Assembly: GCF_021134715.1 (NCBI RefSeq)
Contig: NC_060027.1
Location: 620,001-684,000 of the forward strand
Direction: 5' to 3'
Source of the DNA: Daphnia pulex
Lineage: Eukaryota; Arthropoda; Branchiopoda; Diplostraca; Daphniidae
Length of the DNA: 64,000 nt
The notes under the pieces: generated by a model
Databases searched by the model: none
Seen by the model: the letters and a program-made list of their open reading frames with translations, nothing else
What the model was told of the DNA's origin: nothing
Translations under genes and position numbers: made by a program
In this document: positions 9,830 through 31,800 of the stretch, piece by piece
Layout of the letters: every line of letters begins with the position of its first letter
How positions within the stretch are numbered: the stretch's first letter is position 1

Positions 9830-10021
9830 CTATTGGGAAATGAATTAAAACTGGGCCATCCCACGGTAGCCATCCAACGTAAACTTAAAGAAGGAAAGGC
9901 CAGTTTGCATTTCCTCCAATCTCGACGGTCACGAGAAATTTTACGTAAAACTGGCATGCGGTGGTTTAGAGGTTGGGTGAGAATGACACGTGTTTCGTCA
10001 TTCTCAAAGCAGGGTCAATAG

Positions 10022-10256
10022 CCGCAAAGGTAAGCTATTTGGTATTCATTTTGATATTGGTTTTTGTAGACCCATCCCCAGCAACGTCACCTGCACAAAG
10101 AAAGGCCAGTTTGCATTTCAATCGAAGGTCATGGAGATCTTTAAGTAAAACGTGTCATGCAGTGGTGTAGAGGTTGGGCGAGAACGGGACGTTTTACATC
10201 ATTATCAAGAAGGTAAAATAACCGCAAGGCTTAAGAGGAGGGGTGAGAAAAAGTCG
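10022..10256 (+). repeat. Second copy of a 200-base imperfect tandem duplication
   Basis: The segment around 10100-10215 (AAAGGCCAGTTTGCATTTC, then GTTGGGCGAGAA) repeats the segment around 9895-10015 (AAAGGCCAGTTTGCATTTCC, then GTTGGGTGAGAA) with substitutions. Both lie upstream of the TATA promoter at 10257 and could be duplicated promoter-proximal DNA. The same pair is mirrored in the right arm near 19930-20260, but its first copy there is cut short at the arm boundary. Confidence 0.55.
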
Positions 10257-10291
10257 TATAAAAGGAGAGAGAAAAATCGACAGGTATCAGT
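10257..10291 (+). promoter_or_regulatory. TATA box plus initiator of the Tyr/Thr-rich gene unit
   Basis: TATAAAAG at 10257-10264 is followed 32 bases later by TCAGT at 10287-10291, a textbook arthropod core promoter. It leads into a leader with an ATGG|GTAAAT exon end at 10371-10374. Later units have decayed versions of the TATA box (TACAAAAGG, TATGAAAGG). A mirrored copy lies at 19896-19930 on the minus strand. Confidence 0.7.
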
Positions 10292-10364
10292 CGAGCGAGT
10301 ACCTCCGACACGGTAACAGCTGCTCCATTTGCCATCAGCTGCATTCTTAATCGTGTATCAGTTT

Positions 10365-11041
10365 TCAAACATGGGTAAATTTTCTGTTTTTATATGGAGT
10401 TATGTATCAATTTCTATTTTGTTTTCTCTTTGTTAACATGCCAGATATTTATGCATATTAATTGTTCAATTATTTATTGCTTAGTCGTACAAAAGGGCAA
10501 GGAAAAGGCGAAATAATTCAGCAGCCGAGTGAGCATCTCCGACACGGTAACAGCAACTGCAGTGCACCATTTGTCACCAACTGCATTCTTCGTCGAATTG
10601 CTAGTTTGATATCATGGGTAAACATTTTTACATCGAATTGTGAATCAACTTTCTATTTGTTAACATGCCAGTCATAATGTTCACATAATTATTTGTCTAG
10701 TTATGGTCAACTATGGCGTCGTCCTGCTGTTGGGTGATGCATCGTTGATGGCTGGTTCAGCCACTGCCCATTGGTGTGCCGATGACTCCTGGTAAGGCGG
10801 ATAACAAATTGCAACCCCGCCACCTTACTACACAACATACAACACGACCAGTTGCTACACCGTGGCCCCCCAGTACTGCACCAAGGCTCCAGAATATTAC
10901 ATCACAACTTATGCTGCCCTGAGCTACTACACCGAATCCTTGCAGTATTATTCTTCCCCGAGCTACGCTGCTAAAGGGTCGAGTACTACACCGATGCTCC
11001 GAAGTACTACACCACCAAGGCACCGTAGTACTACACCACTA
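10365..11041 (+). pseudogene. Decayed Tyr/Thr-rich secreted repeat protein gene, units 1-2, left arm
   Basis: Unit 1 is only a leader and ATG exon (10371-10374). Unit 2 repeats the leader, has an ATGG|GTAAAC exon at 10614-10617 and a second exon from 10701 reading MVNYGVVLLLGDASLMAGSA, a clear signal peptide. A frameshift after it leads to a stop at the TGGTAA near 10792. Beyond this the original frame can still be read in pieces: YYTTYNTTSCYTVAPQYC, then KAPEYYITTYAALSYYTES and SSPSYAAKG, then another frameshift. The Tyr/Thr/Pro/Ala repeats suggest a secreted structural (cuticle-, shell- or adhesive-like) protein. I recall similar families in Daphnia but cannot name one. The frameshifts make it a pseudogene. 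Confidence 0.65.
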
Positions 11042-11116
11042 CATATCATGGGTAAATATTTGTTACGTTGAGTTTTAATATGCCAAATACTAAATATACA
11101 AATTATTTATTGGATA

Positions 11117-12177
11117 GTCGTATGAAAGGAGAGAAAAGGTGAAAGAATTCAGCAGCCGATTTAGGATCTCCGTTACGTCAACAGGAACTGCCGTGCACCA
11201 TTTTCATCAACTTCATTCTTCGTCGTATCACAAATTTTAAATAAAGGTAAATATTTTTCCATAGAGTTGTGAATCAACTCTATTTCTTTCTATTAGTTTT
11301 TATGCCAGTACCATAATTGAAAATTAATGTTAAAATTTATTAATCGTCTAGTTAACTATGTCGTCTTGCTGCTGTTGGGTGTAGTAACGTTGATAGCCGG
11401 GTCGACCACTGGTGTACCGATATCTCCTGGGTATGGTGGGTATCAACAACAACATACGCAATAACCGCTTACTACACTGAAGATTGTAAGTGCCACACCA
11501 CCGAGGATCAACTTTTTACCCCATCGAAGCGCCCAAGTACTGCACTACAACCTACGTCGCCCCAGCTTACACCACGCAGGGAGCGGAGTACTACACCACG
11601 CAGGGAGCGGAGTACTACACCACGCAGGGAGCGGAGTACTACACCACGCAGGGAGCGGAGTACTACACCACGCAGGGAGCGGAGTACTACACCACGCAGG
11701 GAGCGGAGTACTACACCACGCAGGGAGCGGAGTACTACACCACGCAGGGAGCGGAGTACTACACCACGCAGGGAGCGGAGTACTACACCACGCAGGGAGC
11801 GGAGTACTACACCACGCAGGGAGCGGAGTACTACACCACGCAGGGAGCGGAGTACTACACCACGCAGGGAGCGGAGTACTACACCACGCAGGGAGCGGAG
11901 TACTACACCACGCAGGGAGCGGAGTACTACACCACGCAGGGAGCGGAGTACTACACCACGCAGGGAGCGGAGTACTACACCACGCAGGGAGCGGAGTACT
12001 ACACCAAGGCTCCAGTTTACTTCACTACAACCTACTTTTAAAGTACTACACCACCAAAGGCATTCGAGTAGAAGCTCCGAAAGCACATCTCTGCCCCGAG
12101 TTACTACACCATTAACGCAGCCGAATTATACCCCAAACTACGATTCCGCAATATTCTACAAGGAAATTCCTTATTAC
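11117..12177 (+). pseudogene. Decayed Tyr/Thr-rich repeat protein gene, unit 3 with minisatellite, left arm
   Basis: Third unit of the same family. The leader resembles that of unit 2, but where unit 2 has ATCATGG|GTAAAC this one has ATAAAG|GTAAAT, so the start codon is gone. Exon 2 from 11352 reads NYVVLLLLGVVTLIAGSTTG, a signal-peptide core, then VPISPGYGGYQQQ and a stop. After a frameshift comes TTYAITAYYTEDCKC and after another EAPKYCTTTYVAPAYTTQG, leading into 18 copies of an 8-residue repeat (TTQGAEYY). It ends KAPVYFTTTYF. At least two frameshifts plus the missing start argue for a pseudogene, although an ORF of 183 codons (11490-12041) spans the array. Confidence 0.65.
11571..12002 (+). 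repeat. 24-base coding minisatellite, 18 copies
   Basis: Eighteen head-to-tail copies, with no differences I could see, of a 24-base unit beginning ACCACGCAGGGAGCGG and ending AGTACTAC. It encodes TTQGAEYY in the gene's frame and LRSLRGVV in an open antisense frame. Perfect identity between units implies recent expansion or homogenisation. The mirrored array in the right arm has 25 units. Confidence 0.95.
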
Positions 12178-12714
12178 TAGAGCCGAAATTTCTACTTGAG
12201 GTTATTTATATTTATCGGTTATTTCATGGTAATTGGTCGTTGGGAATTAATTATTGATCTTAAATGAGAAAATAAAAGTTTTAATACGGGTAATTCTTTT
12301 GTAAGACTTTGTTAATAACTTCAAGCCTGTTAACATTGCTACAGGTGTCTTTTGGTGTTGGATTTCTTCAAGGCCAGAATGCTGAGTTGTAAATTGTTTG
12401 ACTACTGCCTTAGTTCCTCTACATGTTCTTGTGGTTTGACGATGACGTTTCAAGGGTAAATAAGAAAGAAACTTGTAACCGTTGATTTTTTCAAATCTTA
12501 TTAGTAGTTGGCTAGTGACTGACCTTAGTATAAATGAAAGACTTTGAAGTTGAGAAAAATATATTGATACAATTCCTAAACAAACCTTGGTATTAATTTA
12601 GAAACAATGAACAAAAGACTTAAAAAAAGAATTGTGTTATATTGTCCCACCTCCACCCACAATTCCACCACATTTTACAGTCACATACATACATACACAT
12701 ATACATACACTAAG
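12178..12714. other. Arm DNA without a supported gene
   Basis: AT-rich arm sequence. A minus-strand ORF of 68 codons at 12247-12453 (mirrored at 17566-17772) is open in both arms but has no recognisable features. A (CATA)n-like stretch lies near 12680-12710. Confidence 0.4.
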
Positions 12715-12990
12715 TTAACCCATTGGCTGCCACGCCATACAACCCGTAGGTTGCTCTCTACTACACTACGCGCCACGTCAGAAGGATCCATGACCAAGTG
12801 GGACTTGCCATTGCTGACAAGTCCGTGCTGAAAAGGGGGAACTATGGTGCATTGCCTGAAACAGGCGCCTTGCGGCAGATTTTGGGCTTGGCGACTCTCC
12901 GACCCCGCGGCTTGTAAACCACGAGACCGAACAGCGCGGCCCGTGCTAAGGAGCTAGGGGAGAACAAAGGCGTGGCAGCCAACGGGTTAA
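12715..12990. mobile_element. piggyBac-type MITE, left arm
   Basis: A 268-base non-coding segment flanked by TTAA on both sides (12715-12718 and 12987-12990) with terminal inverted repeats: CCCATTGGCTGCCACGCC at the left end and the inverse of CCCGTTGGCTGCCACGCC at the right. The TTAA target duplication with a CCC-starting terminus is the signature of the piggyBac superfamily. It holds no transposase, so it is a non-autonomous element. It is GC-richer than its surroundings. Confidence 0.85.
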
Positions 12991-13241
12991 CTAACACTAA
13001 CACAAACGAAATAATACCAACAATACTATGATCCACGTTGATGACGAGTCTCGGAATTCCATCTTCTCGACGTCTCCTCTGCATTACCTGAATAAAGACA
13101 AAACAATTTTTATTTAGTGACATGCCAATAAAAGTTACATAATACAGATAGAAACAATAATCAGGTTTTTAAGCTCAAACATTTAAAGATTCAATTTTTT
13201 TAACTTAAAATCAAGCTCGCAATATTGAGAACAGTAAACAG

Positions 13242-13631
13242 AACAAAGCTCACTTGCTAGTCTTGAAAAAAAAAATTCCGGAAGTATACCGGAAGTAACC
13301 ACAGCGCCTCAACCATTAAGCTGTCGTCAAATTAAACCACATATTCGTGATCTCCATGAAATTTGGGGTCGAATAGGTGTGATTTAAACGAAATCCAAAA
13401 TTTGGCCAAAATCGAGAATTTTCCTGAACTATAGTTCAGGAAAATTTTCAAAACCGGAAGTACGAAAACGTAAAAAAGATTACATGAACTTTGTCACAAA
13501 TTTGATGAGGATCACGAATATGTGGTTCTTTTGCTCCTGGAATGAATATTTACTGAACTACTGACTGAAATGAGCAAACCGGAAGTAAAAAAAAAAAGCA
13601 CTTATCGAAAATTTAACAAGTGAGCTTTGTT
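13242..13631. mobile_element. Self-complementary MITE-like element, left arm
   Basis: Outer inverted repeats AACAAAGCTCACTTG (13242-13256) and its reverse complement (13617-13631) enclose two largely complementary halves. Inside, ACCGGAAGT motifs and ATATTCGTGATC/GATCACGAATAT pairs face each other. A perfect 30-base palindrome at 13417-13446, centred on ACTATAGT, marks the middle. It has no coding capacity. I cannot assign a superfamily. Confidence 0.7.
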
Positions 13632-13873
13632 GCTGGAATAGTAATCGTCAGTTATCACTAAATATTTCAACAAAATAACTGACAATAAATGTTTAAAGAG
13701 ATGTGCAAAGTAACTGAAACTGACTGTTTTGACAGCTGCAAATTATCAAAAAGCCATCTAGCGTTGGAAAAAAGAAACGTCCAAGTAAAACTTCGTTTGA
13801 GCGTAATAAAGGCCTGATTTTGGAAACTATATCACAGACAGAGTCTAACGCACCTAGACTATTAATAGATAAC

Positions 13874-14140
13874 CTACGAAAATAAGTCAATTGTTGGGTA
13901 CCTGGGCATAATCCCGTGGTGAGTGACTCCAGGTGTGTAACAGCGGACGGAAGCGATCACTGAAGGTGTCCAGAAACTCGCCAAGTCGCCAATGAAGTAA
14001 AACAAATTGTGTTTAGAAGCAGTGAAGCTAGATGAGCGAAGATAAGCATGGAGAAGAACGTTGATGGAAGTCCCTCTTCCGTCATGGACAAAGGTCAGCA
14101 TGGGCACAAGAATCTCCGTGCCAGGACCACACGATTCCAT
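13874..14140 (-). other. Unidentified 88-codon ORF with splice signals, left arm
   Basis: Mirror image of 15879-16145. The ORF reads MESCGPGTEILVPMLTFVHD and onward. It is flanked by an acceptor (ATTTTACAG) and a donor (CCCAG|GTACCC), which would define a 255-base exon with a multiple of three bases. No family is recognised. It could be an exon of an unknown transcript carried by the arm. Confidence 0.3.
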
Positions 14141-14369
14141 AAAGAAACTGCGTGCTCTGTAAAATAAAATGTTTCACATTAATGAAAATATAACAAAGAA
14201 TAAAGCATATCAATCTTTACCTTTTCTAAGAAGCACACTGAAATGTTCATGATGAAAAAACCGTAATAATGGAATTCACAGCAACCATTACTCCACGTGT
14301 TGAGATAAATTTCCTGATTCTCAAGAAAGTGTCATGAAGTATTGCAGTAGCATGGTGATAGGTGGTTCA

Positions 14370-14995
14370 CTCTTCATGTCACTGAAACTCTAAGTGGAAA
14401 TGGGACAAGGAAATTCTCTATGTTATTTACAAATTTACACAAATTTACCTATGAGAAATAACTCTGTACCTATCTCTTAGCTGGGTTGCCTTCTAAACAA
14501 AATTAAAAACAGCCATAACAACAAACATGCTGTTGCAAGGTACACCACCAAAATTGCGAGCTTCAGAAAAGATCCTATGGTTCAAGAATACTTATGTTAT
14601 ACATGAAAATCTGAATTTTAATGGTCTGGTAGCAGTAATGGAGAAATACCTGAACTCGGCAGATTTGTATTCCACTATATGCGAGTTTCAAACATCAGTT
14701 TTAGGCTTTTGGCTGCATGAGGATCTAATGGACGGAAATTGACTGAGTGCTAAGTCAACTTGTTGGAATGACTGACAGTACATCTAAAATTTGAAGACAA
14801 AAAATGATACAGTATAAAAATAAGGAAACTAGGTAAATATAAACCTACATGTGCTACAAAGTTCAATTTGGTATGTGAAATCATAGGAATATAAGTATAA
14901 ATTTGCAACAACAATTTGTTTCGCTCATTTCGCCTCGTTTCACCATGAAAGAACAACAAGGGCGACACTAGCGACATCTGGTAATAAGTTTTGAA
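14370..14995 (+). repeat. Inner repeat element, left copy
   Basis: Segment from TCTTCATGTCACTGAAAC to the centre of the palindrome. It exists in three places: here, mirrored at about 15023-15649, and as a more diverged direct copy at about 20672-21306. It carries a 71-codon ORF (14527-14742, MLLQGTPPKLRASEK and onward) that is open in both arms but broken by an early stop in the third copy, so it is unlikely to be a conserved gene. Confidence 0.7.
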
Positions 14996-15022
14996 TCAAG
15001 TTGCCAACTCAAAACGGAACTC
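14996..15022. other. Spacer at the centre of the palindrome
   Basis: 27 bases not shared by the two arms. They contain the short GTTGCCAAC motif. With arms of about 5 kb this would be the loop of a cruciform. Confidence 0.75.
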
Positions 15023-15649
15023 TTCAAAACTCATTACCAGATGTCGCTAATTTCGCCCATGTTGTTGTTCTTTCATGGTGGAACGAGGCGAAATGAACGA
15101 AACAAATTGTTGCAAATTTATACTTAATTCCTGTGATTTCAATTACCAAATTGAACTTTGTAGCACATGTAGGTTTATATTTACCTAGTTTCCTTATTTT
15201 TATGCTGTATAATTTTATTTCTTCAAATTTTAGATGCATACTGTCAGTCATTCCAACAAGTTGACTTAGCGCTCAGTCAATTTCCGTCCATTAGATCCTC
15301 ATGCAGCCAAAATCCTAAAACTGATGTTTGAAACTCGCATATAGTGGAATACAAATCTGCCGAGTTCAGGTATTTCTCCATTACTGCTACCAGACCATTA
15401 AAATTCAGATTTTCATGTATAACATAAGTATTCTTGAACCATAGGATCTTTTCTGAAGCTCGCAATTTTGGTGGTGTACCTTGCAACAGCATGTTTGTTG
15501 TTATGGCTGTTTTTAATTTTGTTTAGAAGGCAACCCAGCTAAGAGATAGGTACAGAGTTATTTCTCATAGGTAAATTTGTGTAAATTTGTAAATAACATA
15601 GAGAATTTCCTTGTCCCATTTCCACTTAGAGTTTCAGTGACATGAAGAG
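15023..15649 (-). repeat. Inner repeat element, right copy
   Basis: Mirror of 14370-14995. Near the centre it differs from the left copy; for example it reads TATGCATCTAAAATTTG where the left has TACATCTAAAATTTG. In this it matches the third copy at 21073-21086, so the right copy keeps the older state at that site. Confidence 0.7.
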
Positions 15650-15862
15650 TGAACCACCTATCACCATGCTACTGCAATACTTCATGACACTTTCTTGAGA
15701 ATCAGGAAATTTATCTCAACACGTGGAGTAATGGTTGCTGTGAATTCCATTATTACGGTTTTTTCATCATGAACATTTCAGTGTGCTTCTTAGAAAAGGT
15801 AAAGATTGATATGCTTTATTCTTTGTTATATTTTCATTAATGTGAAACATTTTATTTTACAG

Positions 15863-16145
15863 AGCACGCAGTTTCTTTATGGAATCGTGTGGTCCTGGCA
15901 CGGAGATTCTTGTGCCCATGCTGACCTTTGTCCATGACGGAAGAGGGACTTCCATCAACGTTCTTCTCCATGCTTATCTTCGCTCATCTAGCTTCACTGC
16001 TTCTAAACACAATTTGTTTTACTTCATTGGCGACTTGGCGAGTTTCTGGACACCTTCAGTGATCGCTTCCGTCCGCTGTTACACACCTGGAGTCACTCAC
16101 CACGGGATTATGCCCAGGTACCCAACAATTGACTTATTTTCGTAG
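15863..16145 (+). other. Unidentified 88-codon ORF with splice signals, right arm
   Basis: Identical mirror of the left-arm ORF. The acceptor TTTTATTTTACAG precedes 15863, and the donor CCCAG|GTACCC follows 16117. A possible preceding exon end (TTAGAAAAG|GTAAAG) lies near 15799. The frame joins are not conclusive. Confidence 0.3.
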
Positions 16146-16387
16146 GTTATCTATTAATAGTCTAGGTGCGTTAGACTCTGTCTGTGATATAGTTTCCAAA
16201 ATCAGGCCTTTATTACGCTCAAACGAAGTTTTACTTGGACGTTTCTTTTTTCCAACGCTAGATGGCTTTTTGATAATTTGCAGCTGTCAAAACAGTCAGT
16301 TTCAGTTACTTTGCACATCTCTTTAAACATTTATTGTCAGTTATTTTGTTGAAATATTTAGTGATAACTGACGATTACTATTCCAGC

Positions 16388-16777
16388 AACAAAGCTCACT
16401 TGTTAAATTTTCGATAAGTGCTTTTTTTTTTTACTTCCGGTTTGCTCATTTCAGTCAGTAGTTCAGTAAATATTCATTCCAGGAGCAAAAGAACCACATA
16501 TTCGTGATCCTCATCAAATTTGTGACAAAGTTCATGTAATCTTTTTTACGTTTTCGTACTTCCGGTTTTGAAAATTTTCCTGAACTATAGTTCAGGAAAA
16601 TTCTCGATTTTGGCCAAATTTTGGATTTCGTTTAAATCACACCTATTCGACCCCAAATTTCATGGAGATCACGAATATGTGGTTTAATTTGACGACAGCT
16701 TAATGGTTGAGGCGCTGTGGTTACTTCCGGTATACTTCCGGAATTTTTTTTTTCAAGACTAGCAAGTGAGCTTTGTT
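16388..16777. mobile_element. Self-complementary MITE-like element, right arm
   Basis: Mirror copy of 13242-13631 with the same outer inverted repeats and the same 30-base central palindrome (16573-16602). Confidence 0.7.
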
Positions 16778-17028
16778 CTGTTTACTGTTCTCAATATTGC
16801 GAGCTTGATTTTAAGTTAAAAAAATTGAATCTTTAAATGTTTGAGCTTAAAAACCTGATTATTGTTTCTATCTGTATTATGTAACTTTTATTGGCATGTC
16901 ACTAAATAAAAATTGTTTTGTCTTTATTCAGGTAATGCAGAGGAGACGTCGAGAAGATGGAATTCCGAGACTCGTCATCAACGTGGATCATAGTATTGTT
17001 GGTATTATTTCGTTTGTGTTAGTGTTAG

Positions 17029-17304
17029 TTAACCCGTTGGCTGCCACGCCTTTGTTCTCCCCTAGCTCCTTAGCACGGGCCGCGCTGTTCGGTCTCGTGG
17101 TTTACAAGCCGCGGGGTCGGAGAGTCGCCAAGCCCAAAATCTGCCGCAAGGCGCCTGTTTCAGGCAATGCACCATAGTTCCCCCTTTTCAGCACGGACTT
17201 GTCAGCAATGGCAAGTCCCACTTGGTCATGGATCCTTCTGACGTGGCGCGTAGTGTAGTAGAGAGCAACCTACGGGTTGTATGGCGTGGCAGCCAATGGG
17301 TTAA
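17029..17304. mobile_element. piggyBac-type MITE, right arm
   Basis: Mirror copy of 12715-12990, again flanked by TTAA (17029-17032 and 17301-17304). Presence at the paired position in both arms shows that it inserted before the arms were duplicated or was copied between them afterwards. Confidence 0.85.
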
Positions 17305-17841
17305 CTTAGTGTATGTATATGTGTATGTATGTATGTGACTGTAAAATGTGGTGGAATTGTGGGTGGAGGTGGGACAATATAACACAATTCTTTTTTTAAG
17401 TCTTTTGTTCATTGTTTCTAAATTAATACCAAGGTTTGTTTAGGAATTGTATCAATATATTTTTCTCAACTTCAAAGTCTTTCATTTATACTAAGGTCAG
17501 TCACTAGCCAACTACTAATAAGATTTGAAAAAATCAACGGTTACAAGTTTCTTTCTTATTTACCCTTGAAACGTCATCGTCAAACCACAAGAACATGTAG
17601 AGGAACTAAGGCAGTAGTCAAACAATTTACAACTCAGCATTCTGGCCTTGAAGAAATCCAACACCAAAAGACACCTGTAGCAATGTTAACAGGCTTGAAG
17701 TTATTAACAAAGTCTTACAAAAGAATTACCCGTATTAAAACTTTTATTTTCTCATTTAAGATCAATAATTAATTCCCAACGACCAATTACCATGAAATAA
17801 CCGATAAATATAAATAACCTCAAGTAGAAATTTCGGCTCTA

Positions 17842-18835
17842 GTAATAAGGAATTTCCTTGTAGAATATTGCGGAATCGTAGTTTGGGGTATAATTCGGCT
17901 GCGTTAATGGTGTAGTAACTCGGGGCAGAGATGTGCTTTCGGAGCTTCTACTCGAATGCCTTTGGTGGTGTAGTACTTTAAAAGTAGGTTGTAGTGAAGT
18001 AAACTGGAGCCTTGGTGTAGTACTCCGCTCCCTGCGTGGTGTAGTACTCCGCTCCCTGCGTGGTGTAGTACTCCGCTCCCTGCGTGGTGTAGTACTCCGC
18101 TCCCTGCGTGGTGTAGTACTCCGCTCCCTGCGTGGTGTAGTACTCCGCTCCCTGCGTGGTGTAGTACTCCGCTCCCTGCGTGGTGTAGTACTCCGCTCCC
18201 TGCGTGGTGTAGTACTCCGCTCCCTGCGTGGTGTAGTACTCCGCTCCCTGCGTGGTGTAGTACTCCGCTCCCTGCGTGGTGTAGTACTCCGCTCCCTGCG
18301 TGGTGTAGTACTCCGCTCCCTGCGTGGTGTAGTACTCCGCTCCCTGCGTGGTGTAGTACTCCGCTCCCTGCGTGGTGTAGTACTCCGCTCCCTGCGTGGT
18401 GTAGTACTCCGCTCCCTGCGTGGTGTAGTACTCCGCTCCCTGCGTGGTGTAGTACTCCGCTCCCTGCGTGGTGTAGTACTCCGCTCCCTGCGTGGTGTAG
18501 TACTCCGCTCCCTGCGTGGTGTAGTACTCCGCTCCCTGCGTGGTGTAGTACTCCGCTCCCTGCGTGGTGTAGTACTCCGCTCCCTGCGTGGTGTAGTACT
18601 CCGCTCCCTGCGTGGTGTAAGCTGGGGCGACGTAGGTTGTAGTGCAGTACTTGGGCGCTTCGATGGGGTAAAAAGTTGATCCTCGGTGGTGTGGCACTTA
18701 CAATCTTCAGTGTAGTAAGCGGTTATTGCGTATGTTGTTGTTGATACCCACCATACCCAGGAGATATCGGTACACCAGTGGTCGACCCGGCTATCAACGT
18801 TACTACACCCAACAGCAGCAAGACGACATAGTTAA
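17842..18835 (-). pseudogene. Decayed Tyr/Thr-rich repeat protein gene, unit 3, right arm
   Basis: Mirror of 11352-12177, with the same premature stop, the same frameshifts and the same lost start codon. The long array makes a 239-codon ORF (18697-17978) in which 25 TTQGAEYY repeats run between YVAPAYTTQG and KAPVYFTTTYF. Shared disabling changes mean that decay came before the arms were last homogenised. Confidence 0.65.
18017..18616 (-). repeat. 24-base coding minisatellite, 25 copies
   Basis: Mirrored array of the same 24-base unit, 600 bases, units identical to those in the left arm. The seven extra units are the only length difference found between the arms. Confidence 0.95.
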
Positions 18836-19145
18836 CTAGACGATTAATAAATTTTAACATTAATTTTCAATTATGGTACTGGCATAAAAACTAATAGAAA
18901 GAAATAGAGTTGATTCACAACTCTATGGAAAAATATTTACCTTTATTTAAAATTTGTGATACGACGAAGAATGAAGTTGATGAAAATGGTGCACGGCAGT
19001 TCCTGTTGACGTAACGGAGATCCTAAATCGGCTGCTGAATTCTTTCACCTTTTCTCTCCTTTCATACGACTATCCAATAAATAATTTGTATATTTAGTAT
19101 TTGGCATATTAAAACTCAACGTAACAAATATTTACCCATGATATG

Positions 19146-19822
19146 TAGTGGTGTAGTACTACGGTGCCTTGGTGGTGTAGTACTTCGGAGCATCGGTGTA
19201 GTACTCGACCCTTTAGCAGCGTAGCTCGGGGAAGAATAATACTGCAAGGATTCGGTGTAGTAGCTCAGGGCAGCATAAGTTGTGATGTAATATTCTGGAG
19301 CCTTGGTGCAGTACTGGGGGGCCACGGTGTAGCAACTGGTCGTGTTGTATGTTGTGTAGTAAGGTGGCGGGGTTGCAATTTGTTATCCGCCTTACCAGGA
19401 GTCATCGGCACACCAATGGGCAGTGGCTGAACCAGCCATCAACGATGCATCACCCAACAGCAGGACGACGCCATAGTTGACCATAACTAGACAAATAATT
19501 ATGTGAACATTATGACTGGCATGTTAACAAATAGAAAGTTGATTCACAATTCGATGTAAAAATGTTTACCCATGATATCAAACTAGCAATTCGACGAAGA
19601 ATGCAGTTGGTGACAAATGGTGCACTGCAGTTGCTGTTACCGTGTCGGAGATGCTCACTCGGCTGCTGAATTATTTCGCCTTTTCCTTGCCCTTTTGTAC
19701 GACTAAGCAATAAATAATTGAACAATTAATATGCATAAATATCTGGCATGTTAACAAAGAGAAAACAAAATAGAAATTGATACATAACTCCATATAAAAA
19801 CAGAAAATTTACCCATGTTTGA
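19146..19822 (-). pseudogene. Decayed Tyr/Thr-rich repeat protein gene, units 1-2, right arm
   Basis: Mirror of 10365-11041 with the same signal-peptide exon and the same frameshifts. The mirrored TATA box is at 19923-19930 and the initiator at 19896-19900. Confidence 0.65.
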
Positions 19823-20260
19823 AAACTGATACACGATTAAGAATGCAGCTGATGGCAAATGGAGCAGCTGTTACCGTGTCGGAGGTACTCGCTCGACTGA
19901 TACCTGTCGATTTTTCTCTCTCCTTTTATACGACTTTTTCTCACCCCTCCTCTTAAGCCTTGCGGTTATTTTACCTTCTTGATAATGATGTAAAACGTCC
20001 CGTTCTCGCCCAACCTCTACACCACTGCATGACACGTTTTACTTAAAGATCTCCATGACCTTCGATTGAAATGCAAACTGGCCTTTCTTTGTGCAGGTGA
20101 CGTTGCTGGGGATGGGTCTACAAAAACCAATATCAAAATGAATACCAAATAGCTTACCTTTGCGGCTATTGACCCTGCTTTGAGAATGACGAAACACGTG
20201 TCATTCTCACCCAACCTCTAAACCACCGCATGCCAGTTTTACGTAAAATTTCTCGTGACC

Positions 20261-20671: not shown

Positions 20672-21306
20672 TTCACACTCTTCATGTCACTGAAACTCTA
20701 AGCAGCAATGGGACAAGGAAAATACCTACGTTATTTACAAATATAAACAAATTAACTTATGAGAAATAAACTCTACCTATCCCTCAGCTGGTTTGCCTTC
20801 TAAACAGAAGAAGAAACATCCATAACAAAAAATGCTGTTGCAGGTTACACCGCCAAAATAGATTCTATGGTTCATGAACAAGAATACCTTTGTTACATTG
20901 AAAATCTTAATTGTAATGGTCTGGTAGCAGTAATGGGGAAATACCTAATATCAGCACATTTGTGTTCCACTACATGTGTGCTTCAAGCATGAGTTTTAGG
21001 CTTTTGACAGCATGATGGGCCTAAATATGGATGGAAATTGACTGAGTGCTAAGTCAACATGTTTGAATGACTAACAATATGCATCTAGAATTTGAAGAAA
21101 TAAGTTAGAATAACATATAACAAGAATAAAATAAGAAAACTATCAAGCTAAACCTACATTAGATATGAACTTAAATTCGGTATTTGAAATCACATGAATA
21201 TAAGTATAAATTGGCAAAAAAAATTTTTTCGCACACTTTGCCTCGTTTCGAGATGTAACAACAACAAGGGCGATACTTGCGACATCTAGTAATGAGTTTT
21301 GAACCC
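20672..21306 (+). repeat. Third, diverged copy of the inner palindrome element
   Basis: From CACTCTTCATGTCACTGAAA to CGACATCTAGTAATGAGTT this follows 14370-14995 in order and orientation with many substitutions and indels. The 71-codon ORF is broken (ATGCTGTTGCAGG, then a TAG after the PPK codons). It lies about 400 bases outside the right arm. Confidence 0.75.
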
Positions 21307-22844: not shown

Positions 22845-25800
22845 TTACGAAGTGGAGATTTTCTGAGTTGATGTTTTGGAAGCTTTTTCTGTTGCGGCGG
22901 CTGCGATCCTTTGATCCATCCGGATTTTGTAATGACCAGAACCTACTGCGACCGGCGTCACTTTGATTCCGCTCACGGCTAAATAAAGAAGTTGAAACAT
23001 TTAAAATAAAAGTTCTTTAATTACTAATTGAATTCTTACCCGAAATCTCATCCGGTTTGGCTGAAGCGGAATTCCGGCTTTTGTAGGATGTGATGGTCAC
23101 TAAACGGTTGGTCCTGTTGGCCAAAGGAACTCCTCCGCTAGGTACGCTGGTCTTGCGATCCACCAGAGGAGCGGGCGATCTCCTCGATGCGGAAGCTGCC
23201 GCTGGAGACTTGGCGGATGAAGCCGCAGTTGCGTTTCGAAGCGTGCTGCCACTGGTAGAGGTCCTCAGACTCCTCCTCTTCACTTCCGTTGACTGGTTGA
23301 CCTGCTGGAGCGCTCGAGGAGGCCGGACAGGAGCTGCCGCCAGAGAACTGGCGCTTTTACTGGATCGGGTGACGGAAGGAACCGTTTTCACTGGGTCTCC
23401 GGTGGATTTGACGCTACTGCTGCCGTTGGAGCGGCGCCGGACTCCCGGAGTCGAGCTCGTTGATGGAGAGGCTGTGCAGGATCGGTGATGACTTCCTCTT
23501 GAAGGAGTGCTGGCCCCACCTCGGCTCTTGCTGGTAGGTGACCTAATCGATGACTTGACAGAAACTGCCGGAACGCCACTCTTATCTTTCCTGATCACAG
23601 TTGGATGTCGTTGGGTTTTATTCCGGCGGATGCTGCTGGATCCCGACCTGGAGAAAGCCGATCCTGTCGACGAGGAGTCGGTCGTCGTCTGACACAAACT
23701 AATGGCGATAGAAGCCGATTCGGATGTAGCGCAAGAATATTCATCCATCAGAGGCGTGACGGCGGAAGAGGAAGGGACCGAATCCAGCAAGGATGGCCTA
23801 TCCTGCCGGTTGATGATGTCGCTGAGTTTGACGCTGCGCTCACTGCAGCTCGAGTAGCGCGACGTGTTGGTCATCGTCATGGATGAAGTCGTGCGGTTGC
23901 TCCGCTCGTCATCGGTGGTCGTGTCCGTCATGACATCCAGGACGGAACCGAAAGACGAAGTGCTCATTCCTTCCGTTTCGCTGGACGGGCGATGGAAGAA
24001 ATCGTCACAATCAACGAAGGACGGGTCCTCCGCCGGAGGCGGCGGAGTCGGAGAAGAAAACGTTTCCACCGCCACTTCCAGCAAACTCTTTTCTTCGCTA
24101 AAGGAGGAAGAAAAGCCCAGCTCGCTCGACTCTTCCATGATCGTCTCTGTCTTGGCCATCCGAGATTTCTTCGTTTCGATGACGGAATTGCCGAAAAATT
24201 TCCGCACTAACAGGGCGGCCTTCTCTTCCGGCATACCTGCAAAATAAACATCAGTGTCAAGTTTCCTGGGCTCCATTGAATCGGATGGGTTATAATTTAC
24301 CTGACGTCAATTCGATGGAATTGGATCGTTTGGCCGGCAGGGGCTTATTCATTCCAACAGCCAAAGGCGCTGTCACACTGGACTTTTTCACTTGCTTCGT
24401 AAACTGCGTCGTCCGCAATTGATTGGTCGTCGTGCTGCTGCGGCTGCTGTTGAACGTGCTGGATGTCATCGAAGTGGCCGAACTGCTTTTGCGGATTAAA
24501 GGCGGATCTGGAAGAACATCATCCGCCGATTTCTCGAACCTGCTCAGCAATTCTTCCACGCTCGAATCAGCCAATTCCGGCACTTCTGCCGAAAACAAAC
24601 AAGGAAAAAAAGAAAAAGCCGTTATGCAAATCATCACGAAACATACGGAGTTAATCAGGGGGATCAAGTCATAATTTCCTCTTCTTCTCTTGTACTTAAC
24701 GAACAGCCCCCCAAAAAAAGAGGTTTATGACAGTGTCGGTTATAAACACTAAGATTGCCGTCGTGATTTACGGCCGCCTTTGCCAGCTGTCGGGAGAGAG
24801 TCTGGCGGTCGCCGGCCCGATTCCGATCAGTTCATTATATATTAAGTGTTACATCTTTTGAGGAAAAAGTCCTGGCGGAGTCTGAAAGCCAATCACGACC
24901 GACTGTTTTTAACTAACCGACTGGTTTATGATGGACGACTGGAATGGTAGGGGTGGTTGGGTGAGCGGCCGTCACGTCATCGTCTTCGACTCCCGAGGCC
25001 ATCACGAACGACAGCCGCCCCTTTTGCTCGGGGCTTGCAAGAAGTTTGACGGGCGTCATCATCACCGTCGGGGTCGTGACGTCGCCATTTTGGTTCTTGT
25101 GGCTAGTGTTGTTGGTGCTGCTGCTCCTGTTATGGTTATTGGACTCGTTCGTTTGCATCAATCTCGACGGGCTTAGAGTCGGATCAGCCCGAAGCTGCGG
25201 ATGCCCATCCGCCAGCAACTTGGTGGTTTCCCGAAGGCGCTGTAATTGGGCATTGGCCGACGCCGCCTTGGCTTCCGGCCCTTCCGCTTCCACGGAATCA
25301 CGACGATTGGATGTCACTATGTACAGAAAGAAAAAATATCATAAAATTGTAGATGAATATTTTGACCGCAATTAGTTGTGTGTAAAAACGAAATGGGAAA
25401 AAACCAAAACAAAAAAACAATGTTTGAGGTTACAGTGAACATCCTGGTAACGAGATACTGGGCACATCACCTAATACCCTCCCGTTACCTTAGTCATATA
25501 ATATGATATGAAAACAAGCCACCGTTCTTTGATATCATCTGAAATATAAAATCCCGTGCTGTATAAATGCGCGCGATTATTTTTCAAATTTGAATTTTCG
25601 AAAAAGAAATGACTGGCGTGTAAGTGATCTCAATCTCCAATATTACCTGTCGAATGATGGTGCGTAGTCTCTTTGGATGACGTCGTGGAATGGAAATACG
25701 AGCGTGAATCTTGGACGGCGCTGCACGGACGGATTTCGCGGACGACGAATCGATTCTCCGGCAATTTCGATGCGCTTTTGGAGTGAACGAGTCCAGCGGG

Positions 25801-28800
25801 AGGTGCGCAAGGTTTTTCGTGATTCTTGGCCGGGCTGCTGCTGGCTGCCGGAGTGAAATCCATCATCTTGGGAGCGACGACTTCGACTGGAATCGAGTGG
25901 ATTGCATTCCGGTCGAATTCCGTGGTTTCGGTGCGGTCCAGCGAACGGATTTCTTCGATCGTTTCGTTGAGCTGGGCGATGGTTTCGTCGATCGTTTTCG
26001 TTTCATCCACCGCCGTCTGTTGTCGAGCAGAGGAGCTGTGGTGGCGCTTGATGAGGCTGGATTCCGCTTCCGGCTCCAGCGAGTGGTAGCCGTGATCGGT
26101 TCTGACTGATTGAGGATCCGATTCCGGCGGAACAATGGTCTCCGCTTCCGGATCAATCGAATTGGATGGCGGCCGGAACACGGATTCTCTGACTTCGCAA
26201 CGGGCTACCATCATGACCGGATTGGGGCGCAGGTTGCGGATGAGCTCAGCCGCCGACATGCCCGGAATCGAAGTGGCCGACGACTCGGATGAAGCTGGCG
26301 ACCGACCGCGGGAAAAGAAGTTTTCCGGAGTGGACGCCCGGGGGACAAACGGCGGGGTTTTCTTCCGGTTGAGTTCGATTCTCCACGGAGGTACTACGAC
26401 TTCCGGCTGCGGCTGTTGCTGGATCGCGACGGAATTGATCGTCGGCGGTTGTTCGACGTGTTTCAAATGAATCCGCCACGGCAGGATCTCCTGCTGTTCC
26501 GGCGGAGGCTCTTTCTTCTGATTCGTCATGGAAACGGTGATTCCGGAATGGACAGACTGACTTCCCGTCACGACTTGAACCGGAATCACTGGGATGGCAG
26601 CCGGAATCACAGGAATAACCGCCGCTTTGATCACGGGTTCGCTGTTCCGGTCAAGATCCAGTAAATTCTCAACGCTCCTCTTCTTCAAGATGCTCTTGGG
26701 CGCCGGAATCGTTTCCTTCTCCTCCAAAATGACGATTTTCCGCTCAACAGAAGAGTCGAAATTGACAATTCCGTTGCGGATGACCATGGGCGTCGGTCTG
26801 GAAGGTGACACTTCCGCCGGCGGAGCAGTAGAGTAAGCTTTCATCAATGGCGGATAACTATCGATAACCACCGATTCCTTCACCACCGGAGTAGTCACCG
26901 CCGGATTAACAACAGCCGTAGGGGTGATGGTGTAGGGTTTTCTAGGCTGCAGGAGTGACCGGAAGGTATCGCTGGTAGGTGAAGACTGAGAAGCGAAATG
27001 ATTGGTTGATGCACTCGATTCCGGCTGCTGCTGGATCGTATCCTTGATGTCGTCACCAAACATCCGAAGCGGCAATCCGCCGCTGGTGGGTGCGCTGATG
27101 CAAATTCCGACGCCAAATTCCGGATGCTGATTGACTGTGGCCGTTTGGTGATGGTGGATGATGGTGGATTTCACTTCTTCCAGCCGCTCTTGCCATTCGC
27201 GCAGTCGCGACTCGGGGCTCCTGGATCGGATCCTTCGAGGTCTGGATCTCTTCTGGTCGCTCTCCTCTTTCACATCCGCCCCGAACGCGACTTTTTTGGC
27301 TTTCCTTTGCCCTTCCGTCTGGTTGATTTGCGTCAGATCCTCGTTGGAATTCTTGACGGAAGCGATGGTCGAACTGCACTCGGTCCAGTCGCCCATCGAA
27401 TAGACGGACCCGGTTTCCGTGTTGACACCAGAGGCCGAATCCATCCGGTCGTGTCTTAAAGGAACGCCGTTGGTCGACACCAGCGGAGTCTCTTCCAGCA
27501 TCCGCATCAATTCGATCGACTTGTGGTGGTTCAATTTGTTGTTGTTGCCCGTCTCGCAGCTAAAGGATGACGCATTGTCCGCTGTGCCGATGCTGTGCAA
27601 ACTCTCACGCGAAGAATTGACAATAACGATGGAACTGCTGGGCACCGGTTTCGCATTGGCTTTATTGGCCGGAACCACGCGGAAGGTTGTCGTGTTGTTG
27701 TTGTGACAGGATTCGATGACCGTCTGGTGATTGGCCAGCTCTTCCCTGGACTCGTTGGACGACGCCAGACTCGAGACGGACACTTTCAACGTCGTCGTTA
27801 CTGCAGGCGCCGGTGGTTTCTCTTCCGATTTCTTCCGGGCGGGTTCGGGCGATGACTGGGCACTGGCCAGGAGGTTCTCGCGCGAGTTGCGCAGATGCTG
27901 CTGGATCTTGCTGGTCGTGCTGGTGTTGGTGAACGTGAAGATGGGCGTGTAATTGTGCGGCTTGGTCGGCGACGGCAGGTGGGAAGTTGAGGAAGTCGGT
28001 CCGGCGGAAGGATCGGGATCGATCAAGGAAAGTCCAGTGGGTCGGAGTTTCACACCCAACCAGACGGGCGTCTCGATCGGCGGTGGCGACTTGATGACGG
28101 GCGGTTTCCGTCGTCCGTCTCGCAAACTCCGCCGGACCCTCAAATCTCTTAACCAAATCGGTTCCGCCTCTTCCAGCACGTTCGTGGCCGAGCGGCTGCT
28201 CTCGGAGCGCTGGACGGACGTCGGAGTCGGTGTCCGTCTCGGTTGGGCGGTCGTTTTATTGTGCTCAGTGGCAACCGAGGAAGGCGTTCCGGATTCACGA
28301 ACCGTATCCTTTTGCGTGAGATGATCTTCTTCCGACTCGTCATCCGCCGAAACGTCATCAATCGACTGGGCGAAATACGAGAGGCGAGAAGAGCCGGTCG
28401 GCGATTTGCCCGTCTCCTCTTCGGCCTGTTTGGGCGAAGGATTCTTGATCCAGGGCGGAATCATTTTCTCAATGGCGCTGGACGTCGAGCGGACGGTGGA
28501 GCAGAGACTGTCGCAGGAGCGGCTGACGGCCGTCCCGGTGATGGACGGCACATCCGAACTGCCGGACGTGTTGAGCAAACTCTGAAGCTTGTCGGCCGCT
28601 TCAAAGCCGTACGATTGGCGGCGCTCGTACCACGCCTCCGACCTGTTCCGCCCGCCGGATCTCATGCGCTGCTGCTCCGTCATGGAGGCGTTGCTGTTGG
28701 TCTCGTCGAGATCGTCAAACGACATGGAGATGGACATGGTGCGCAATGAAGAACCACCAAAACTGGAAGCCGGACTCCCCTTTTCGCCGTACAGGTACGT

Positions 28801-31800
28801 CGAGGCCGGCGGAGTTTTCGTTACAACAACCGGCGCCGGCGATTGTTCTCCTTGTTCCAGCTCCTGAATTTCATCCTCTTCTTCTTGTTCATCTTCCTGT
28901 TGCTGTTGTTGCAACTGTTGTTGTTGCTGACGTCTTTGTTCGATGGTCCGGCGGGCGTTGTAAGCGCTGGCCCGAGCGTTGGCACGTTGGGGCGTGTCAT
29001 CAGGAGCCGCAACGGCCTGATGATGTTCTGTCGTCGCTTTGGATTCGTTCGACTGACTGGAAGTGACTGGCCCTCCGTTGAGCAAAGTGATGTTGATGCT
29101 GCTGGACGATCCCTCAGCGCCTCCAGCGGCGGATGGAGCCGTGCCAACAACCACCACCCGGGGCCCTAAGGTGATGATGGTCCGTCTCCTGACAACTTCT
29201 CCGTCCTCTCCAACCGACTCCTTGTCGTTGATTTCAACGACGTCCGTCATGCCGGGAATAGGAGACGGTGAAGACGACGACACTGAAGCGGAAGAGGACA
29301 CTTCATCCATGACGAAATCCAAATCTTCCCGATCCGGAAGAGGCGGCGGACTGTTGGCCGGCAGGGAAGGCGGAGTGCCAGACCGACTGCAATTCCAGTC
29401 CGTCTGCGGCGGTAGTTGTAAAGTGACTGCCGCTGTCACTGGGACCGGTTGTTGTTGTTGCAGGTCCAGCGGCTTCGGTGGCTGTTGTTGTTGTTGCCGG
29501 AAGACAGGCGGAGGAGGTCGAGGTGGCGGCGTTCTACTCCTACCGCTGCGGATGGATTCGGTTCCATTCATCGATGGAGCCGACGATCCTGTAGGAGCCG
29601 ACAGTTGCTGTTGTTGATGTTGTTGCAGGAGTTGTTGGTGCTCCTCGTAAGGCAGCGATCCTTGACTGTTGACGCGCCGATATCGAATCGTCGGCGGCCT
29701 CCGGCCTCCCAGCGATCCTTTACGGGCGATGGATCCTTTACCCAGCTGAGCGGCCAAGTCCAGCTGCTGAGTCGGCAACTGCCAAAGACAAGAAAAGAAA
29801 AAACAGATTTGCATAAATTATTCATCGTGACGCCCGGAATGCCCCGTTTCATCATGACGGATCTGTGTTGTGTGTGACGTCAAACCCAAAATACAAAAGA
29901 AAAATCCGTCTGCTGGATGCCGTCCAATGCGTTCACCAAGCTGGAAAAAAACCCGGATGCAAATTACCTGGTGGCTGATTAGACTACAAGTTAAAAGGGG
30001 GCCAAGTACTTAACATCTTATCAGCGACCTTGTTATTTGCTCAAATTCCTCCTTCAACCGATTTATACATCACCCACTAGAGATGATGATGGAATGTTTA
30101 AAGTGGGGGGGGGGGGTCTGAAAGGGTTCGTGCCAGTTGCAACTAATCCAACTGGAACACAACAACAACAACAACAAAATAGCCCGAGACAGGTGGGTTT
30201 GTGTGTTCTAATGCGATTTCGATTGCCATCGGGTTGTTTTAATGCCAACGGCCATGGCGAGAAATGTGTGTGTTGTACGGTGCGCTAACATACCCAGAGT
30301 CACGCTCCAACACGGCCCGGCCATCAGCATTCCCGTTCCTTGTTCCATGCTGGCATGGCCCGTGTTCATTCTTCCGTCACGCATTCCTTTGGCTATTTTT
30401 ACTATCTCTTCCGCATTATTTTGTATCATGGGTAACATTTTCTTTGATTCATTTATTTCTTTCTTCTTCTATTGTTGTTGTTTTTACCTGCAAGTCGTCC
30501 AGGTACTGGGCCGAAGTCATCACCGAAGAATTGGGCGCCGCCGCCGCTGATGGGCCGGAATTGCTGCGGATGGTCTGGAACTGAGTGCTGGACGAGCTGC
30601 GGCCGTGAAAGACTCGGTCCTCGGTCACGGTCGTCGAGTATTCGCTCCACTGGGTCGTGTTGACAGTGGCCGTCGCCGATCGGACAATCAGTCCAGGAGC
30701 CACTGTCGTTTTCGATTCCGCCCACTGGGTGGCGTGCTGGACGTGGCGGACAGGCCTCAGAGGCGGGTGGGGTGTCGGGCCATCCGCAAAGAGTGCCGGA
30801 GGCAATCCAGGATCGACTCCCGATCCTTCTCCCTCCTCGTCGCCGTGACTACCCCGAAAGTGGTGATTCCGCAATGGATCCGATCCGCCAGCTGTTGCTG
30901 TTGTCGTCGTCGTAGTTCCAAACGCCGGCGCTGCAAACCCTTTCAAAGTCGACGCTCCGCCGGGCGGGAACATCTGCGTAAAATTTAAAAAACGACGCTC
31001 GGATAAATAGAATCATAATAACAAAAAAATACTAGACGATGGTTATTATTATTCTTATTATTTTGTGTGTTGGAAAAAGAAGAGAAATAGACGCCGCGTC
31101 ATGGAACGGCAACAGGGTGGAGCCGCCGAGGCGTGAACAAACGACGCGCTCCAATGACGTCATGTAGTACTTTTTCCGTTTTTTTTTTTCGTTCGTTCGT
31201 TTGTATTTTTCACGAGCAAATATTGACTTTCAAAGCGTGACAAGAAATCTACAAGGCGTACACAAAAGTTTGGGTATACCTACGTACTTAAAACTAATGA
31301 GAGAATAAGAAAAAATGGACAAGGAAAAATTTAAGAATAGACGATGATTCGGTCGACATTTCGTGTGTTGACGTAACGGGAATTTTTTTTTGTTTCGTTG
31401 GTCGTGTGAAATTTTCCCAGTTGTCAACATCATCATCTGTTTGCTGATGTGTCCACAAGTGCAGAAAATCAGGAAGAAATTTCGAGTTCCACAAAACCGA
31501 AATTGGTGACAGGTGCTGGGAGAGACACACGGGGGAAAAATAACTTCACGGAAGGCGGGAGACTCTACGATTGGAATGCGGGGGATCGGAATGCAGATCA
31601 GACGACGTCATCATCGATTTCTCAGCAGCGAAAAAATAAACATGCGACGACCCGCAATCGCCTTGAGATTTGGTTTCCAGGGGTTCCCACCCGTTGCGAT
31701 CGTGCGGGAGAAAAACAAAAACTAAACAAAAAAATTCCCATCGACCAACAACAACATTGACCACAATCTCTTCGTTCCAATCGATTTCTTCACGTGATTC

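Follow-up and report, generated by a model that had tools for sequence, protein, structure and literature searches.

A 10.3-kb palindrome in Daphnia pulex with identical arms and a diverged centre, likely an old structure homogenised by arm-to-arm gene conversion

Layout and contents of the palindrome

The stretch of DNA analysed here (the window) comprises 64,000 nucleotides of the Daphnia pulex contig NC_060027.1 (assembly GCF_021134715.1, positions 620,001 to 684,000); coordinates count from its first letter. A first-pass annotation had placed a 10.3-kb palindrome with a 27-base spacer at 9927..20260, and self-BLAST together with exact string comparison of the window upholds it: 9927-14995 and 15023-20260 are mutually reverse-complementary, with the limits of continuous arm identity at 9926/20261. 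The following features can be assigned:

9927..14995, + strand: left arm (self-BLAST, exact string comparison)
15023..20260, - strand: right arm, the reverse complement of the left (self-BLAST, exact string comparison)
14996..15022, no strand: 27-base spacer (comparison with sister palindromes)
14706..14995, + strand: inner left arm, presumably unconverted
15023..15313, - strand: inner right arm, presumably unconverted
14368..14995, + strand: centre element, left half
15023..15651, - strand: centre element, right half
12328..14366, + strand: core segment of the left arm, common to other loci
15653..17691, - strand: core segment of the right arm
10703..11056, + strand: exon 2 of a broken Tyr/Thr-rich gene (copy A)
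19131..19484, - strand: mirror of copy A (coordinates by reflection)
11348..12137, + strand: broken Tyr/Thr-rich gene (copy B)
17882..18839, - strand: mirror of copy B (coordinates by reflection)
11568..12006, + strand: 24-bp tandem array of 18.3 copies, encoding YTTQGAEY repeats
18013..18619, - strand: 24-bp tandem array of 25.3 copies, right arm
12713..12991, + strand: MITE-like 279-bp element with imperfect terminal inverted repeats
17028..17306, - strand: mirror of the 279-bp element
13243..13631, + strand: second MITE-like element, with ends ACAAAGCTCACTTG / CAAGTGAGCTTTGT (direct reading)
16388..16776, - strand: mirror of the second element (coordinates by reflection)

By exact string comparison, an outer block of 1641 bases (9927-11567 against 18620-20260) and an inner block of 2699 bases (12007-14705 against 15314-18012) are reverse complements without a mismatch. 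Thus, when the 24-bp array and the innermost 290 bases are left out, all 4340 compared bases are identical. Every substitution (14) and, the array aside, every indel (4) that separates the arms falls in those innermost 290 bases. Because the copy numbers of the two arrays are unequal, the arms also differ there in length by 168 bp. The description of the arms as near-perfect can therefore be sharpened: outside the centre they are perfect apart from the array, and the differences are confined to the array and the centre. This combination of perfect arms and imperfect centre is the informative part of the pattern. Chance or low complexity as the origin of the arms is excluded by exact blocks of this length.

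Arms that are exact over 4340 bases might also be expected from a false hairpin join or a collapsed repeat, and scaffolding errors are able to create palindromes according to the excerpted text of PMC7953838. However, the two arrays are unequal by 168 bp, and of the 18 arm differences in the centre, six are found again in a sister palindrome that lies 1.73 Mb away and has an identical spacer. Arm differences also persist in the five other palindromes that were read, so the assembly pipeline did not erase such differences. An assembly artefact is accordingly highly improbable.

Each arm carries two copies of a Tyr/Thr-rich gene, and both are broken. Exon 2 of copy A encodes a signal-like peptide followed by two in-frame stops and, further on, a change of frame. 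Copy B contains two frame shifts, and on direct reading of the sequence the ATG typical of the family was not seen at its exon 1. The first-pass annotation had described genes and two MITEs as mirrored between the arms; the two MITE-like elements and their mirrors are confirmed, but "genes" is too generous a word for the broken copies. The 279-bp element is found in other palindromes as well. Pfam gave no match for the Tyr/Thr-rich family protein or for three of the window's long open frames; elsewhere in the window it recognises a galactosyltransferase and a fatty acid hydroxylase. The centre was also considered as a microRNA and rejected: the Rfam matches, MIR7725 and mir-19, score below the gathering threshold and sit on the fold itself, and both look like generic hairpin resemblance.

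Related inverted copies across the genome

Searches covered the same 133-Mb, 13-contig genome, and six of the palindromes found were read in sequence. Among the matches listed, there are at least 36 places on 9 contigs where copies of the Tyr/Thr-rich gene, the core or the centre face each other. The view that such palindromes seldom occur except on sex chromosomes or at amplified loci consequently needs qualifying for this genome. The spread over 9 contigs also speaks against a sex-limited or non-recombining chromosome as their seat, and Daphnia is not known to have sex chromosomes. Searches with the centre, the core and the 279-bp element scored the best 40 of 305, 447 and 339 candidates, respectively, and the counts of gene pairs come from 150 of 354 protein matches.

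The centre halves occur in at least 55 merged places, forming at least 15 fold-type pairs on C3, C7, C9, C10, C11 and C12 (among the matches listed, with C10:3061 kb counted once and an opposite-orientation pair at C9:8231 kb left out). Self-BLAST detects one more centre copy within the window, at 20676-21303. Core identity is mostly 85-89% in the fetched loci of C6, C7, C10 and C12, with one C7 piece at 81%; the inner 727 bases of the core are 93-98% identical in the other C11 copies. In other listed loci, the C11 sisters included, core and 279-bp element also flank the centre face to face. An inverted repeat longer than 1.7 kb is present in 5 of the 13 segments compared (the window region and 12 genome places picked for matching the window) and in none of the other 8; for one of these 8, C10:1776 kb, the partner gene copy lies outside the fetched stretch. 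Arms are about 3-12 kb long in the palindromes read, with about 5 kb in the window and about 12 kb in one on C10 (C10a). In all six, including a palindrome (L030) with a different fold point, inside the core, divergence is higher in the centre than in the outer arms.

This dispersal would suit a Foldback-type transposon, a mobile element with long inverted repeats that would comprise either the full 10.3 kb or just the 1.28-kb centre, and the numerous centre places and fold-type pairs, like the extra copy at 20676-21303, are in keeping with it. However, the arm ends vary by locus, C10a against the window being a case in point, and we consider such an element improbable. A related idea, that the self-facing centre is itself the agent that seeds or carries palindromes and so spreads one gene family over most chromosomes, is conceivable though doubtful. 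If it were true, genome-wide, self-homogenising autosomal palindromes would constitute a natural replicated experiment without a sex chromosome.

Neighbouring copies of the gene lend further support to arm-to-arm conversion: among the matches listed, score (within 0.6 bit) and length are nearly equal in 16 of 24 opposite-strand neighbour pairs versus 1 of 14 same-strand pairs (Fisher P = 5e-4, the pairs being not fully independent), and 22 of the 24 opposite-strand pairs are convergent. Convergence of this kind, along with the broken copies in the window, could point to a hairpin-RNA locus, in which convergent read-through transcripts would form a long double-stranded hairpin and so silence the family. 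This reading is very improbable; the two Rfam hits on the fold do not reach their gathering scores.

Separate histories of arms and centre

The spacer of the window recurs in two other C11 palindromes, exactly in a sister at C11:2364.3-2365.6 kb (C11B) and with two base changes at C11:516.4-517.3 kb. Next to the fold, left/right differences are common to sister palindromes; beyond the fold, the two arms of one palindrome agree with each other but not with those of another. In the comparison of the window with C11B, all 6 informative sites at 14368-14705 group by locus, as do 2 sites at 14706-14860, where 1 further site (14800) is crossed. Within 14861-14995, in contrast, 8 columns group by side and none by locus; these columns represent 6 events, namely 5 substitutions (two adjacent) and one 3-base indel, and 1 crossed gap column (14891) lies beside a C11B deletion. 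The two crossed columns misfit the simple pattern. The ratio of by-locus to by-side counts is 8:0 outside, against 0:6 inside, with a Fisher P of 3.3e-4 for a boundary picked after the sites were seen. That the outer arms of C11B match each other is judged from search scores that are the same for left and right. C11C, the third palindrome on C11, has right-type states in its left half at the majority of these sites, and most of its right half is missing. In a centre tree made without C11B the two halves of the window are sisters, as expected if 338 of the 628 bases were converted; this is not proof of age.

The palindromes of C10 give the same picture. Between C10b and C10c, the centre has 35 sites by side and 0 by locus, the core 24 by locus and 0 by side, and 5 crossed sites beside the centre misfit the simple pattern. 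C10a compared with either of them has 11 centre sites by side and 2 by locus, and in the core 38 sites (C10b) and 17 sites (C10c) by locus with 0 by side. For the centres of C10a, C10b and C10c, a sister relationship of left and right is rejected by approximately unbiased (AU) tests, which also reject grouping by side in the core; for the centre of C7a, such a sister relationship is not rejected (p = 0.435). The core tree is less decisive: the C10a arms are sisters with a support of only 68, and those of C10c are not sisters, at weak nodes (45-53). Arms within a palindrome are more alike than duplicated palindromes are to each other clearly for the window, C10b and C7a and weakly for C10a; the C10c core arms are not. 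Arms of C10a and of C10c differ in patches along their length, which is consistent with the tracts that conversion would leave.

Because centre sites group by side and outer sites by locus, the palindrome probably predates the duplication of the loci, with the arms rewritten since then and the centre not. Left/right-specific centre differences common to loci, in the window and C11B and again in the C10 palindromes, likewise make the palindrome older than its last homogenisation. Within the scope of one assembly of one genome, we therefore regard the palindrome as likely to be an old, repeatedly duplicated structure homogenised by arm-to-arm gene conversion. Of the two accounts offered in the first-pass annotation, recent origin or similarity maintained by gene conversion, the sister palindromes favour the latter, acting on an old palindrome.

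A young inverted duplication would start from a break beside an older 1.28-kb centre repeat, with a fold-back that copied one flank into recent 5-kb arms; the centre differences would then be those of the older short repeat. Such a single event also fits the absence of arm substitutions and the sharp edge at 14706, and the centre repeat does face itself at 15 or more of the places listed. However, given that the same layout of core and 279-bp element recurs around the centre elsewhere, C11 sisters included, independent fold-backs would have to rebuild one arrangement again and again, and the C10a and C10c arms are mosaic rather than uniformly identical. A young duplication is, on this evidence, unlikely.

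Conversion and comparison with known palindromes

In this palindrome, convergent Tyr/Thr-rich repeat-protein gene copies and the shared core flank a short fold point. We infer that pairing of the two arms, in one chromatid or across sister chromatids, is followed by repair that overwrites one arm with the other. Such conversion would seldom extend into the innermost 0.3-1.2 kb, and in C10a and C10c, two of the six palindromes read, the unconverted part would stretch in patches to about 2-3 kb. The centre may be spared because a loop is required for pairing, or because divergence already present stops conversion. Since the gene copies here are already broken, homogenisation of the window copy looks like a by-product of the inverted geometry, not selection for function.

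Most discussion of arm-to-arm conversion treats it as a means of rescue for sex chromosomes or for asexual organisms. In the present genome it seems to act on several related palindromes whose contigs have no known sex-chromosome role, and because these include one with broken gene copies, the inverted geometry alone may suffice. Mutation-accumulation rates have been published for the Daphnia group. The replicate palindromes, some sharing one fold point, could provide a measure of how closely conversion approaches the fold, and how frequently.

Primate Y and X palindromes, according to the excerpted text of PMC8981503, are large gene-bearing inverted repeats with arm identity above 99% via intrachromosomal gene conversion; near-identical inverted arms, with identity ascribed to conversion, are what they share with the structures described here. 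Unlike them, the present palindromes lie on contigs not known to be sex chromosomes and have arms of about 3-12 kb (those read), a 27-base spacer and many related inverted copies, with the gene copies of the window broken. Among invertebrates, excerpts of PMC5490193 and PMC7953838 discuss gene-bearing palindromes of Folsomia candida and Adineta vaga as sites of gene conversion, a likeness to the present case; the Folsomia Dscam2 palindrome has a Ks of 0.2 versus 0 substitutions in 4340 bases here, although the measures differ. Palindromes in PMC7953838 were called from annotated gene order, and D. pulex, lacking annotation, could not be screened there, as its excerpted text states. Among the Daphnia papers listed in literature searches, titles and abstract openings contain no report of these palindromes.

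The inverted duplicate genes hsp70 and Amy of Drosophila undergo concerted evolution by conversion at single loci, whereas here there are many dispersed pairs, several with a shared core and centre. Long inverted repeats and short fold points also characterise Foldback elements and palindromes that have undergone asymmetric centre deletion, and the present palindromes resemble both in these respects; in L030, the fold lies elsewhere in the core.

The window palindrome and its arms

Comparison of the arms places the palindrome where the first-pass annotation had put it, with the following parts:

9927-14995, left arm
14996-15022, spacer of 27 bases
15023-20260, right arm
12328-14366, mirrored at 15653-17691, core
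14368-14995, mirrored at 15023-15651, centre element, beside the spacer
10703-11056, exon 2 of gene copy A, left arm
11348-12137, gene copy B, left arm

From the outside inward, both arms contain a Tyr/Thr-rich repeat-protein gene twice (it encodes a signal-like peptide and repeats such as YTTKAPEY); the core, which includes two MITE-like elements, comes next, followed by the centre element. Apart from a 24-bp array and the 290 bases nearest the centre, no mismatch separates the arms in the 4340 bases compared (1641 + 2699), and the two copies of the core are identical. The arrays differ in length by seven units. The innermost 290 bases contain 14 substitutions and 4 indels; under random placement, the probability that all 14 substitutions would fall there is ~1e-17.

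In copy A, two stops closely follow the signal-like peptide. The frame changes twice in copy B, and on direct reading of the sequence, a family-type ATG was not seen at its first exon. The arms do not differ in this stretch, so the lesions are present in both. An intact relative, a 347-aa reading frame, is present at C7:11323616-11324656 (contig C7) and has no match in Pfam. Within the core, a 279-bp G+C-rich element (12713-12991) is 92-99% identical among 38 listed copies, the window's own two excluded, and has a strong RNA fold (z -4.65). Part of the second MITE-like element (13290-13469) is unusually conserved across eight loci, with a divergence of 2.5-4% vs roughly 6-16% in adjacent bins.

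Histories of arms and centres

Six palindromes were compared in sequence: that of the window, C10a (2461 kb), C10b (2987 kb) and C10c (3062 kb) on contig C10, and C7a (174 kb) and L030 (C7:1520 kb) on contig C7. All six have a centre that has diverged further than their outer arms. In C10a, the first 871 aligned bases contain 130 differences; farther out there are 18 in patches to 2.1 kb and 2 over the roughly 10 kb that remain. C10c is patchier, with core arms 97.45% identical, outer blocks at 99.3-99.8% and scattered arm differences out to ~3.3 kb. L030 has a different fold point, inside the core, and nonetheless shows the diverged centre.

The identity of the window's arms could also be that of a young inverted duplication; if arms were merely young, however, centres and arms would share one history. 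In the core tree, left and right arms are sisters in C10b and in C7a (support 100 each) and in C10a (68), while those of C10c are not (weak nodes). The centre tree pairs C10b with C10c for the left centres (100) and holds a clade of the C10a-d right centres (100); with the sister palindrome C11B left out, the two halves from the window pair as sisters. By AU tests, grouping of the centres within a locus is rejected for C10a, C10b and C10c but not for C7a (p = 0.435), and grouping by side is rejected in the core. Informative sites can group left with left and right with right across loci (by side), join the two arms of one palindrome (by locus), or do neither (crossed). Between C10b and C10c, 35 centre sites group by side and 0 by locus, vs 24 by locus and 0 by side in the core. 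Five crossed sites adjoin this centre, left pairing with right across loci; one of the two centres may have been inverted through crossing-over between arms. C10a compared with C10b and with C10c gives 11 centre sites by side and 2 by locus each (crossed, 2 or 1), and 38 and 17 core sites, respectively, by locus with 0 by side.

C11B (C11:2364.3-2365.6 kb), on the window's own contig, has a 27-base spacer identical to the window's. Between these two palindromes, 6/6 informative sites in 14368-14705 group by locus, and 14706-14860 has 2 by locus and 1 crossed. In 14861-14995, grouping by side is seen at five substitutions (two of them adjacent) and at one indel, 0 sites group by locus, and one crossed gap column lies next to a deletion. 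Thus, the left/right differences at the spacer predate the split of the window palindrome and C11B, and the outer sequence has been rewritten within each. In a third palindrome on this contig (516.8 kb), the left half has right-type states at most of these side-specific sites; its right half is largely missing, and the pattern is less clear than in C11B.

These comparisons show concerted arms, an unconcerted centre and a spacer that recurs between palindromes. The window palindrome is very probably old, its arms kept alike by arm-to-arm gene conversion that largely spares the centre; recent duplication is improbable. The core arms of C10c, the support for C10a and the crossed gap column count slightly against conversion.

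Probable conversion, timing and known systems

Inverted arms would pair, copy repair would follow, and conversion would be scarce near the fold. That conversion may occur without any selective benefit is suggested by the broken gene copies of the window. With a pulex rate from an excerpt of PMC12926508, and assumptions about species and neutral rates, zero differences in 4340 bases place the most recent full homogenisation no further back than roughly 76,000-150,000 generations; for the centre, a divergence of 4.9% translates into about 5-11 million generations.

Mammalian sex-chromosome palindromes, as described in part of PMC8981503, work in the same manner, and the arrangement fits the palindrome idea discussed for Folsomia and Adineta (excerpts of PMC5490193 and PMC7953838). 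Unlike those systems, the palindromes here lie on several contigs, with a very short spacer and many related copies. According to the same excerpt of PMC7953838, a survey of parthenogenetic animals, D. pulex could not be screened for palindromes because annotation was lacking.

Inverted copies in the genome and other features

The genome searched comprised 133,188,837 bases in 13 contigs; the window spans 620001-684000 on contig C11. The best 150 of 354 protein matches merged into 96 gene-sized clusters. Near-identity of copies depends on orientation: for neighbours no more than 25 kb apart among the matches listed, score and length are nearly equal in 16 of the 24 pairs on opposite strands and in 1 of the 14 on the same strand. 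Searches with the centre and the core found, among the matches listed, at least 15 fold-type and at least 11 inverted pairs; merged with the 16 gene pairs, these mark at least 36 separate places spread over 9 contigs; with weaker gene pairs included, there are at least 41 on 10 contigs (among the matches listed). Counter to this picture of a family, no partner is listed within 6 kb for 22 of 55 merged centre matches and 18 of 40 core matches, and 8 of 13 segments compared contain no long inverted repeat.

Just beyond the right arm lies an extra single copy of the centre element (20676-21303, ~80% identical), which, with the adjoining outer arm end, is matched by C7:11316.2-11317.7 kb. On contig C12, inverted unit copies at 1144.7-1147.9 kb and 1300.5-1303.7 kb (L021 and L022), ~150 kb apart, are 97.4% identical over 3.2 kb and are possibly the ends of an inversion.

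Elsewhere, the A+T-rich window contains:

25633-29817, minus strand, G+C-rich open frame of 1395 codons, no match in Pfam
38922-43067, minus strand, G+C-rich open frame of 1382 codons, no match in Pfam
57697-58359 and 60747-61416, direct repeats, 87% identical, the first with a fatty acid hydroxylase-type frame and the second with a similar one
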